Source of the DNA: a bacterium | GTDB lineage: Bacteria; SZUA-182; DTGQ01 | Direction of reading: 5' to 3' | Length of the DNA: 64,000 nucleotides | Assembly (NCBI GenBank): GCA_023512255.1 | Contig: JAILZY010000004.1 | Span: 1 to 64,000, forward strand | Shown here: positions 34,469 through 51,920 of the stretch, piece after piece | How the letters are laid out: every line of letters starts with the position of its first letter | Position numbering within the stretch: the stretch's first letter is position 1 | Translations under genes and position numbers: made by a program | The notes under the pieces: model-generated | Database searches by the model: none | The model's input: the letters and a program-made list of their open reading frames with translations, nothing else | Told to the model about the DNA's origin: nothing

Positions 34469-35409
34469 CTTTCACCCCCAAGAATGAGATAGAGTAAGGC
34501 CATGCGGACAGCAAGCCCATTGGTTACCTGATCGAGAATGAGAGAGAAGGGAGCATCCGCTACCTGCGGATCGATCTCAATTCCCCGGTTGATCGGGCCA
34601 GGATGCATAATGAGTACATCTTTTTGCGCCTTAGACAACTTGGCTAAGGTCAGACCATAGAGTCTGGAATACTCTCGAATCGAAGGGAAAAATAATCTAT
34701 TTTGCCGCTCAAGTTGTATCCGCAAAAGGATGATCACATCACAGTCAGCAATTCCCCGCTCAAGGTTGTACTCAACCACCACCCCAAGCTTCTCGATCAG
34801 CGGCGGGATAAGGGTTGGTGGGCCAACCACCTTGACCGCAGCTCCCATCTTCACCAGGGCGAAAATATCCGACCTGGCCACTCGGCTGTGGATAATATCA
34901 CCAACAATAGCTACCTTCAGCCCCTCGATTTTCCCCTTGTGCTCCCTTATGGTAAGCAGATCCAAAAGAGCCTGGGTTGGGTGCTCATGCGCTCCATCGC
35001 CGGCATTGATAACGGCAAATTTCGCTTTTTGAGCCAAAAAATGAGGCGCTCCTGGTATAGGATGCCGGATGACAATAATGTCGGGATTCATAGCCTCCAG
35101 GGTCTTAGCCATGTCTTTTAGACTCTCCCCCTTGGTTAGACTGCTGGCTGAGGGCGAGATATTGATCGTGTCAGCACTCAGTCTCTTGCCAGCGATTTCA
35201 AAGGAAACCCTGGTCCTGGTGCTAGGCTCGTGGAATAGATTGATTACTGTTTTTCCCCGAAGTGTGGGGACCTTTTTGATTGGCCGGGTGAGCACTTCCT
35301 TAAAGGATTCTGCTGTATCGAGAATAAAACATATCTCCTCCCGGCTCAATTCCTGAATACCTAATAAGTCCTTCCTCTTGAACAACCTTTCTGATCCTTC
35401 TTCAAACAC
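34465..35409 (-). CDS. pyrB: Aspartate carbamoyltransferase catalytic subunit
   Basis: [51 protein letters not shown]. Confidence 0.97.
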
Positions 35410-37874: not shown

Positions 37875-39200
<1,326 letters not shown>

Positions 39201-39350
39201 TTATTAGGTTAACATAACTTTGGTTATTAAGTTAATACGGCTTAATATTGTTTTTCTCGGCTCTGGCCGATCAGCTTTGCGGGTCAAAAATATCACAAAT
39301 ACTTTTCAGATTCAATAGAAAAACAGGTACTAACAGGGGGAGGGAGAAAA

Positions 39351-39409
39351 GAGTAATATTAGAGTAATATTAGTGAAATGTTTAGAAAGAGTAATATTAG
39401 TGAAATGTT
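39351..39409. repeat. AT-rich direct repeats gagtaatattagtgaaatgtt beside the DnaA boxes
   Basis: Copies at 39362-39382 and 39389-39409, partial copy at 39351-39361. Confidence 0.9.
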
Positions 39410-39942
39410 AGGAAGATTTTCCACAATTTCTTTGGATAACCTGTGGATAACCAAGATAAATTCGGCTGGAACTGCCTGAGAAATTAGCCAGGATAGCACT
39501 TTTGCCTCTCGATGAGCCTTTCTCTATTAAGATAATATATCAAATAGTTACCAGATATAATAGCTACTTTTTGCTCTATCCTCAGGATGAAATCCGATGG
39601 CGGGAGAAGTTATCCACAGATGATCGACTCGCGGCTGTCTCCTCTAATTCATTATCAGACATTTTTGAAAAAGGGGGATGGACATTTGGGGCAATAAGGA
39701 AAAAAATTGATTTTGTCAGAGATTAGGAAAATTTTCCACAGAAGTTATGGATAAGTTGTGGATAACTAGAGGGACAAAGGAGAAAAAGCCGTAGAAAAAC
39801 AAAGGCAATAGCAATTTTGCTTGGCATGGAATCTATTTTTATTGGCAGATATTTCAAATATTTAATTAAGATTAGCTAATCAGCTTCCCCTCTCTCGAAA
39901 AGCAAGGATGAAAAAATGAAAGTTATCCACAGGTTAGTGTTT

Positions 39943-39974
39943 AAACTGAAAATCCTAAATAGGATTTTCAGTTT
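39943..39974. other. Perfect 14-bp stem hairpin at right edge of the DnaA-box region (possible terminator)
   Basis: AAACTGAAAATCCT-AAAT-AGGATTTTCAGTTT. Confidence 0.7.
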
Positions 39975-40059
39975 TCTGATGATTGCGGAATCAAGAAGCA
40001 TAAACTCTGAAACTTGCTTGACACGAAATCCTCCTAGTGTGGTATGATAATGCTGCTAC

Positions 40060-40106
40060 CTACTATATATAGTAGTATCTCCTTAAAACTATACAATATG
40101 ATCTAC
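40060..40106. promoter_or_regulatory. Candidate NrdR-box pair upstream of nrdD
   Basis: Perfect palindrome CTACTATATATAGTAG 40060-40075 fits NrdR core CwAtATaTwG; degenerate second site ATACAATATGATCTAC at +31 bp. Confidence 0.55.
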
Positions 40107-40230: not shown

Positions 40231-42324
40231 ATGAGTAATGTAGAAACCACGGATATGGCCCTTTTCGTTCGAACCTCAGAAGAGGATTTTCGAAGTTGGG
40301 ATCGACAGAAAATTGTCGATGCCCTGGTACGTGAAACCTATATTGATGAGGACACAGCTATTCGCATCAGTAAGGAAGTGGAAAGTCAGATTATAGCCTC
40401 GAATCTCAAAATCATTACCGCTCCTCTGATCCGTGAGCTAGTAGATGCAAAGCTCATTGAGCATGGACTAGAGCGGGCTCGCTGGATGCATACCCGCCTT
40501 GGGATGCCACTTTATGACGTCAATCAGCTCATTCTCCATCCTAACCGGGAAAATGCCAATGTACCTCATGGCCCTGAAGCCACTAACCTGACCCTGGCCG
40601 AGCATATCAAGAAAGAGTATGCACTTTTAGCTCTTTTTTCTCAGGAGGTGGCTGATGCCCACTTGCGGGGAGATATCCATATCCATGATCTTGGCTTCTG
40701 TGACCGTCCTTACTGCTCCGGCCAATCCCTTGAGTATGTCAAAAAATTCGGTCTGAACCTGCCGAATGCTCTGTCTATGGCCAAGCCGGCCAAACATCCC
40801 GAGGTGCTGCTGGCCCACATGGTAAAATTTGCCGCTGCCCTGCAGGGGAATTTCGCCGGGGCTATCGGCTGGGATGCGGTCAATCTCTTCTTCGCCCCCT
40901 ATCTTTCGGGGATGTCGGATCGAGAGATTCGCCAGCTGGCCCAGATCATGATTTTTGAGTTTTCCCAACAGGCCGTAGCCAGGGGAGGACAGGCGATCTT
41001 CAGCGATATTAATATCTATTGGGAAGTGCCTAGTCACTTTGAAAATGTTCCGGCCATTGGCCCCGGGGGAATCTATACTGGCAAGACCTACGGTCAGTAT
41101 CTTGAGGAGTCGCAAAGATTTGCTCGAGCACTTTTTGATGTTTACCTGGAAGGAGACGCATCAGGCAGACCCTTCTTTTTCCCCAAGCCACTGGTTCACA
41201 TTACCGAAAAATTTTTCAAAACTCCAGGGCATCAGGACTTTCTTTTCCATATCTGCGAAGTGGCCGCGGAGAAAGGGAACACCTACTTTGTGTTTGATCG
41301 TGGGGATACGGCCAAAATTTCCGAGTGTTGCCGACTGAGTTTTAAACTCAGGGCCGAAGATCTTGAAGATGCTAAAGAACCCTGGAAGATGAGATACTGC
41401 GCTCTTCAGAATGTTACCCTAAACCTGCCACGGGTTGGCTATGAGGTCAAGGGAGACAACTGTCGGCTCTTTGAGCGGCTAGGAGATTTGATGGAGCTGG
41501 CTGCCGAGGCTCATATGCAGAAGCGAGTTTTTATCGAAAAGCTCTTGGCTCTTGGGGAGAGCGGGCCTCTATCCCTTCTGACCATGAGTCGGGATGGTGA
41601 GCCCTATCTTCGACTAGAGCGCGCCTCTCATCTGATCGGTATGGTTGGGCTGAATGAGCTGGTAAAAATCCAGACAGGCCAGGAAATGCATGAATCGAAA
41701 GAGGCCTTCATGATGGGACTCAAGATCATTTCCCATTTGAAACTCTTGGCTGACCGTCTGTCCAGCAAGCATAAAATGCATTTTGTGCTTGAGCAGACCC
41801 CGGCAGAGAGCACCAGCTATCGGTTCGCCAAGCTAGATCTTCGCCACTATGGATCGGCCGCGGAGAAGACTGTGCAGGGAGATTTGGCCAAGGGAGAGGT
41901 ATACTATACTAACTCTACCTACTTGAATGTGAGTGCTCCGATTAACCCGATTGAGCGGGTCAGGCAGGAAGGACTATTTCATCCGCTGATCGAAGCTGGA
42001 GCCCTGACCCACATCTGGCTGGGGGAGGCAAGGCCATCGCGGGAGTCTTTGGCTAATTTCGTGGTTAAGACCTTTCAGAAGACCTTAAATGATCAGATCG
42101 CCTTTTCTCCAGAATTTACGACCTGCAACAGTTGTAGTCAAACGGCACGGGGGCTGAAAGAGACCTGCCCCTATTGTGGCTCAGACCAAGTTGACGGGAT
42201 TACCCGAATTACTGGCTATTTTACCAAGATTTCCAGTTGGAACAAGGGTAAGAGGGGAGAGCTTCGGGACCGATATCGAAATCAGATCTATTTGCAAAGG
42301 GAGAGTGTTGGAAATGAAATTTAA
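40231..42324 (+). CDS. nrdD: Anaerobic (class III) ribonucleoside-triphosphate reductase; start revised to ATG 40231
   Basis: ATP-cone-like N-terminus, C-terminal CNSC..CPYC zinc site, glycyl-radical loop RITGYF. Confidence 0.96.
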   Translation: MSNVETTDMALFVRTSEEDFRSWDRQKIVDALVRETYIDEDTAIRISKEVESQIIASNLKIITAPLIRELVDAKLIEHGLERARWMHTRLGMPLYDVNQLILHPNRENANVPHGPEATNLTLAEHIKKEYALLALFSQEVADAHLRGDIHIHDLGFCDRPYCSGQSLEYVKKFGLNLPNALSMAKPAKHPEVLLAHMVKFAAALQGNFAGAIGWDAVNLFFAPYLSGMSDREIRQLAQIMIFEFSQQAVARGGQAIFSDINIYWEVPSHFENVPAIGPGGIYTGKTYGQYLEESQRFARALFDVYLEGDASGRPFFFPKPLVHITEKFFKTPGHQDFLFHICEVAAEKGNTYFVFDRGDTAKISECCRLSFKLRAEDLEDAKEPWKMRYCALQNVTLNLPRVGYEVKGDNCRLFERLGDLMELAAEAHMQKRVFIEKLLALGESGPLSLLTMSRDGEPYLRLERASHLIGMVGLNELVKIQTGQEMHESKEAFMMGLKIISHLKLLADRLSSKHKMHFVLEQTPAESTSYRFAKLDLRHYGSAAEKTVQGDLAKGEVYYTNSTYLNVSAPINPIERVRQEGLFHPLIEAGALTHIWLGEARPSRESLANFVVKTFQKTLNDQIAFSPEFTTCNSCSQTARGLKETCPYCGSDQVDGITRITGYFTKISSWNKGKRGELRDRYRNQIYLQRESVGNEI

Positions 42325-51551: not shown

Positions 51552-51920
51552 TGGTGGAGGCGGGGGGAATCGAACCCCCGTCCGAAGATATTCAGCGAAG
51601 GATATCTACATGTTTAGCCTCGTCTTTTTCTTCTCGTGAGCCCTCACTCCGAGAGGCGAGGATTAAAGGGCTCACCAGCTCAAAGGTTTTCACCAGCCCT
51701 CCCCGAGCCAGGGGGAGCTAGCTATCCTTGTGTTTATGACGCCCGACCCTGCCCCCACAAGGCAAAAGGGCAAGGGGACGTGACCGCACTAACGGCTAGT
51801 TAGGCAGCCAGAGCCAATTCGTTGTTGGCAGTTGTATTTTTCCTATTGTTTTACGAGGGAACAGGAACCTCGACATGCAATCCTTGCCTCAACTATCCCC
51901 GTCGAAACCAGATCGCCCCC
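51552..51920 (-). ncRNA. ssrA: tmRNA
   Basis: 5' GGGGGCGATCTGGTTTCGACGGGG and 3' GGTTCGATTCCCCCCGCCTCCACCA on the minus strand; tag frame ANNELALAA-stop; next to smpB. Confidence 0.97.
51800..51829 (-). other. tmRNA proteolysis-tag reading frame, ANNELALAA*
   Basis: GCC AAC AAC GAA TTG GCT CTG GCT GCC TAA on minus strand. Confidence 0.85.

Follow-up and report, generated by a model that had tools for sequence, protein, structure and literature searches.

The gap between eno and nrdD in the 64-kb window (the whole 64,000-nucleotide stretch of DNA analysed here) contains a cluster of DnaA boxes that, on balance, appears to consist of two tandem copies of a DARS-type DnaA control element. The element is best filed as one that works like DARS, as a putative member of that class; the assignment is backed by the boxes themselves, a fixed geometry, conservation, dispersal to other loci, intergenic position, a box I-II spacing shared with DARS1 and DARS2 of E. 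coli, and the presence of genes of the IHF type.

DnaA Boxes and Modules Between eno and nrdD

The source assembly (G000; 3.83 Mb in 172 contigs) was examined together with a sister genome of the same genus (G001), the class set comprising ten genomes. The gap is bounded by the divergent genes eno (enolase; 37875-39176, minus strand; Pfam Enolase_C, 3e-135) and nrdD (class III ribonucleotide reductase; 40231-42324, plus strand; Pfam NRDD, 3e-146). A preliminary description of the region had reported four perfect boxes within about 490 bp, and all four copies of TTATCCACA were located in the gap, at 39442-39450 (-), 39610-39618 (+), 39757-39765 (-), and 39923-39931 (+); with four one-mismatch boxes, they occupy the interval between 39417 and 39931. 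The window holds a fifth exact copy, at 34887, and 32 matches when one mismatch is allowed, versus 12.7 +/- 3.3 expected, while the whole assembly holds 65 exact copies versus 15 in a reversed-sequence control. No other part of the assembly has four exact boxes within 500 bp, and at the genome's own box density, the probability of such a four-box cluster is about 2e-10 per 490-bp stretch.

In both halves of the cluster, a forward box is followed after 5 bp by a reverse box and after another 2 bp by a second reverse box, at 39417-39450 in module A and 39732-39765 in module B, precisely as the preliminary description had it. Box I, read from the sequence as TTTTCCACA in both modules, lies on the plus strand at 39417-39425 (A) and 39732-39740 (B). 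In module A, it is followed at 5 bp by box II in the opposite orientation (TTATCCAAA; 39431-39439, minus strand) and, 2 bp further on, by the tandem box III (the exact copy at 39442-39450); in module B, box II is TTATCCATA (39746-39754, minus strand) and box III is the exact copy at 39757-39765. The remaining exact copies, at 39610-39618 and 39923-39931, form the distal boxes of A and B, respectively, and stand 159 and 157 bp from their cores, in agreement with the lone forward box previously placed about 160 bp after each module. Between core and distal box, module A carries an IHF-like site, TATCAAATAGTTA (39538-39550, plus strand), which is a perfect match to WATCARNNNNTTR, with 87 bp separating it from the core and 59 bp from the distal box; its counterpart in module B, TTTCAAATATTTA (39852-39864, plus strand; one mismatch), lies at 86 and 58 bp.

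Modules A and B are 52% identical to one another, and the two halves are 60% and 63% identical to their own counterparts in G001. As each half is nearer to its G001 counterpart than to the other half, the duplication predates the split of the two species, and the ancient tandem duplication that had been proposed from the alignment of the halves is borne out. The nrdD region of G001 contains a third, more degenerate module copy.

The edges of the cluster are likewise as described: the AT-rich direct repeat GAGTAATATTAGTGAAATGTT occurs twice on the left (starting at 39362 and 39389; 39362-39409), and a perfect 13-bp inverted repeat with a 6-bp loop lies on the right (39943-39974). A role for these features as a DNA unwinding element or terminator was considered and rejected; the direct repeat is single in the sister genome, the hairpin lacks its left arm there, and both were therefore left out of the element definition. 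Elsewhere in the window, a tmRNA gene (51552-51920) specifies the tag peptide ANNELALAA.

A Rigid Geometry Around an IHF-Like Site

The preliminary description had overlooked the IHF-like site at equal offset in each half, the fixed geometry, and the copies elsewhere. Eight copies are linked to nrdD in five genomes of two families (two in G000, three in G001, and one each in G002, G003, and G004), and in every one of them, the core and distal box are separated by 155-159 bp, and the motif T[TA][TA]CA[AG]N4TTA lies between them, at 85-87 bp on the core side and 57-59 bp on the side of the distal box. This motif resembles the IHF consensus, which module A matches in full. The element is an ordered one (three-box core, about 86 bp, IHF-like site, about 58 bp, distal box) whose nrdD-linked copies drift to 42-53% sequence identity while the spacing stays fixed. 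Spacing that holds constant while the sequence varies this much suggests a bent protein-DNA complex. The loss of box I from three of the eight nrdD-linked copies counts against a DARS-type reading.

The IHF-like consensus recurs at its fixed position in nearly all full copies, a position unlike that in DARS2, and the assembly encodes an IHF-alpha-like and an IHF-beta-like protein, each scoring best to its own subunit family, at 2-3 bits below the curated cut-offs. Most copies further contain a conserved dyad, TTGC-N11-GCAA, about 52 bp from the core (e.g., L289, L312, and L313); the Fis-like dyad is found at 52 bp in many copies, and its slots in the window, at 39503-39517 (module A) and 39818-39832 (module B), are both degenerate. 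The dyad often matches the Fis consensus perfectly, even in lineages where Fis may not exist.

Copies Elsewhere in the Class

With a gap pattern, G002, G003, and G004 were each found to have this arrangement at a second locus. A sequence-only profile, R1, built from 11 copies, returned 11 further loci from the ten class genomes (E-values of 2e-26 to 2e-4), all of which have core spacings of 5 and 2 bp. The full-length copies among them (one each in G002, G006, G007, and G008 and two in G005) have core-distal spacers of 156-159 bp, and core-only copies are present in G000 (C60 and C69), G001 (C1 and C2), and G003 (C472). The core-only copies of the source assembly (C60:3454-3584 and C69:73667-73818), which have neither IHF slot nor distal box, recall the short DARS1; the former lies near ftsH and has its same-genus counterpart on contig C1 of G001. 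Overall, a three-box core with box I opposed to boxes II and III is found in both window modules and in 17 of the 20 other class copies. The class copies are all intergenic, and their neighbours are unrelated (hrcA, gltX, cmk, pgi/rnc, hypD, ftsH, and others).

The Replication Origin

The region had been put forward as a candidate oriC, an identity that we consider highly improbable; the cluster is probably not the chromosome's replication origin. The proposal draws on this being the strongest box cluster of the assembly, on the AT-rich repeats that adjoin it, and on a weak inflection of the local skew near 39 kb. It is disfavoured by the very condition that the preliminary description had named as counting against it: dnaA lies on another contig, C48 (gene order gyrA-gyrB-dnaA, then rpmH-rnpA-yidC-mnmE), where box clusters of its own, conserved in three relatives, flank dnaA on both sides and where gene strand and third-position skew switch at the dnaA-rpmH junction. 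In G000, all genes to the left of this junction run left, all those to the right run right, and third-position GC skew flips its sign; the same switch of strand and skew occurs in G001. The GC-skew inflection by which the proposal was to be checked is only weak and local at eno-nrdD, versus clear at the dnaA-rpmH junction of G000 and G001, an indirect comparison made over stretches of a 172-contig assembly in which skew and gene strand are confounded. As a counterpoint, the switch at dnaA is itself partly confounded with gene orientation, and the more distant G006 has no strand or skew switch at the dnaA-rpmH junction. The left 31 kb of the window's contig, for its part, is mostly transcribed toward eno-nrdD, which also speaks against an origin there.

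The number of copies argues in the same direction. The uniqueness expected of an oriC is lacking, given the tandem copies, the core-only copies on C60 and C69, and the full copies elsewhere in relatives; modules that are repeated and dispersed, with several copies per genome at unrelated loci, are a poor fit to a unique origin. In G000 to G003, by comparison, a box triple stands at the start of dnaA, and more boxes, together with AT-rich DNA, are found in the dnaA-gyrB gap, a layout around dnaA that resembles bipartite origins. The box triple (L035:13280-13330 and relatives) has spacings of 2 and 3 bp in an arrangement unlike that of the module, and is a probable site of autoregulation or part of the origin.

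The Link to nrdD

The preliminary description had also proposed a DnaA control region, and this holds in general terms, as boxes accompany nrdD in most class relatives; the module, on the other hand, is not specific to nrdD. A DnaA-dependent transcriptional switch of nrdD, similar to that of E. coli nrdAB and with the DnaA array acting together with NrdR on the promoter, is a possible and supported explanation to which we would give slightly less than an even chance, and it and the DARS-type reading are not mutually exclusive. E. coli DARS1 and DARS2 are located in the promoter regions of uvrB and mutH, and a DnaA switch is thus compatible with the preferred explanation. The expected conservation in relatives was found, with DnaA boxes retained at nrdD in eight of nine class relatives, some of which do not have eno next to it. 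Between the modules and nrdD lies a palindrome that is NrdR-like in sequence (CTACTATATATAGTAG; 40060-40075), and an nrdR gene is present in the assembly; a switch is further favoured by E. coli DnaA, which binds upstream of nrdD by ChIP-seq (PMC11317965). The palindrome upstream of nrdD reads ATACTATATATAGTGT in the sister genome.

In G006 to G009, plain tandem arrays of boxes are situated just downstream of the apparent nrdD-operon promoter, which also suits a switch; boxes and nrdD are therefore linked in two ways within the class. These arrays (L046, L047, L048, and L049) have tandem boxes 2-3 bp apart in G006 to G008 and a looser arrangement in G009. When the DNA upstream of nrdD was scanned in about 70 further deltaproteobacterial genomes, the cluster was found in almost none, which confines the nrdD link to this class. 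A switch of nrdD fits less well with the full module copies at unrelated genes in G002 to G008, with the distance of about 130 bp from the NrdR-like site to the nearest box, with the lack of a box cluster at nrdD of G005, and with a fixed 157-bp arm, which is unusual for a simple repressor site.

Matches Beyond the Phylum

When R1 was applied to 192 genomes, full-length matches were obtained outside the phylum, whose cores are spaced 5/2 or 5/3 and which carry an IHF-like site at around 86 bp and a box at around 157 bp; the box II-III spacing is 3 bp in two or three copies outside the phylum. A second profile, R2, combines 15 class copies with five found outside the phylum and contains no E. 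coli sequence. Among 386 genomes, 62 have an R2 match at E <= 1e-4, and 17 held-out genomes outside the phylum have one at E < 1e-8, with the proviso that profile E-values are rough (shortened calibration) and that plain box arrays can score high. Inspection of 16 held-out loci found a core I-II spacing of 5 bp in 14, and in many of the 16, the Fis-like dyad (GNNYRNNWNNYRNNC, also TTGC-N11-GCAA) is placed 51-52 bp, and an IHF-like site 84-87 bp, from the core. In a control set of 73 other deltaproteobacterial loci, totalling 1.16 Mb, three matches had E < 1, one of them at E < 1e-3, the best being 8e-5. Several strong R1/R2 matches were set aside, namely L287 and L293 as simple box arrays and L291 as a dnaA promoter.

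In G071 and G212, which belong to different families, the element lies 19 and 27 bp upstream of hda (Bac_DnaA and Hda_lid domains); the G071 copy was an R1 match used in training, and the G212 copy was held out. These copies occupy L292:1493-1715 and L315:1501-1709. A DnaA-like match on C46 was weighed as a possible Hda and discarded, being closest to loaders of the DnaC/DnaI type. A second DnaA-like gene of about 400 amino acids, besides full-length dnaA, was observed at G006:C87:25078-25554, G007:C250:32873-33349, and G008:C23:3276-3743 (L172, L171, and L173).

Published DARS sequences come from E. coli and its gamma-proteobacterial relatives (PMC4245941); a review places them in many proteobacterial species (PMC10380432). 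The module may, more tentatively, exemplify an ancient DnaA-recharging element that would occur throughout bacteria, would consist of a head-to-head core, the dyad, an IHF/HU bend, and a distal box at fixed spacing, and of which DARS1 and DARS2 would be derived members and which, in some lineages, would sit in the hda promoter and so join the recharging and inactivating branches of the DnaA cycle; we hold this broader proposal to be a possibility with roughly one chance in three of being right.

Proposed Mechanism and Significance

From the sequence, we infer that the element binds DnaA and IHF, forms a loop, supports nucleotide exchange, and has an effect on nrdD. DnaA would fill the three-box core, where boxes I and II would put two DnaA molecules face to face, and a bend introduced by IHF (or HU) 86 bp from the core would fold the arm, such that DnaA on the distal box, 58 bp past the bend, could meet the core complex. 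If DARS of E. coli is a guide, the two DnaA molecules facing each other on the core would give up their ADP, and ATP-DnaA would thereby be restored for the next initiation. The complex at the nrdD promoter region may, in addition, couple deoxynucleotide supply to the state of DnaA, and the presence of two copies in tandem there may increase the dose. The opposite catalytic direction, a datA-like hydrolysis, could also apply.

If the module is functional, the recharging of DnaA by a chromosomal site would go back much further and extend much more widely than has been thought, the architecture of such a site would be readable from sequence, and R2 would make the question testable across many lineages. 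The arms of constant length would likewise offer a natural set for studying the coupling between bending by IHF and nucleotide exchange on DnaA, and the distribution of the element raises the question of why such sites occur at nrdD and at hda.

Comparison With Known Systems

With a bacterial oriC (bipartite, around dnaA), the element shares clustered DnaA boxes and AT-rich neighbours; it differs in lying away from dnaA, in being multi-copy, and in being without a demonstrated unwinding element, the canonical candidate being at dnaA. In common with the DnaA control of ribonucleotide reductase genes in E. coli (nrdAB and nrdDG), boxes lie upstream of such a gene in tandem, 2-3 bp apart (PMC11317965), whereas here, they form a long module of fixed geometry that is also found away from ribonucleotide reductase genes.

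The comparison with datA bears on a further alternative, that of a datA-type element, in which looping by DnaA and IHF would stimulate DnaA to hydrolyse its bound ATP, or which would simply titrate DnaA. In datA, as in the module, a single IHF site of the same orientation is flanked by boxes, with arms of 56 and 84 bp versus 58-59 and 86-87 bp here, distances nearer to the module's than those of DARS2 and hence a point against the DARS-type reading; datA also requires IHF looping between boxes (PMC5742627). This match in spacing amounts to two numbers and could be due to chance, and datA is without the three-box DARS core and its 5-bp I-II spacing and has other distal box orientations. When R2 was run over five control regions of E. 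coli MG1655, it gave 26.1 bits to DARS1 and 22.7 to DARS2, versus 10.9 to nrdD and 8.2 to datA and to oriC. We therefore regard a datA-type element as unlikely, at about one chance in five.

It is chiefly through the core that R2 matches DARS1 and DARS2. The E. coli arm segments gave no significant match, except for a marginal IHF slot in DARS1 (P = 0.012), in a test that is descriptive given that the sequences had been selected by the profile and hence were not independent. An arm unlike that of E. coli is among the points against a DARS-type reading: the IHF-like site is 86 bp from the core here and about 58 bp in DARS2, and the arm measures 155-159 bp here and 176 bp in DARS2. Further differences from DARS are the TTGC-N11-GCAA/Fis-like dyad that separates the core from the IHF-like site and the tandem arrangement of the copies (two here and three in the sister genome).

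The cores are more alike. The DARS core consists of three boxes, with box I opposite to boxes II and III and with identical spacing at both sites, and boxes I and II bind DnaA head-to-head, which leads to ADP release (PMC5742627, PMC8682772). Measured in MG1655, the cores of DARS1 and DARS2 read box III, 3 bp, box II, 5 bp, and inverted box I; in the same reading direction, the window modules read III-2-II-5-I. The II-III spacing is thus 2 bp rather than 3, a difference that counts against the DARS-type reading, and tandem boxes 2 or 3 bp apart are both accepted by DnaA (PMC11317965). The module shares with DARS1 and DARS2 a three-box core in which box I opposes a tandem II-III pair at a I-II spacing of 5 bp, as well as an intergenic position near a promoter. 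The IHF-bent arm of DARS2, with its further outward box, has a possible counterpart here in the IHF-like site and the distal box, which lies to the same side of the core and is oriented alike.
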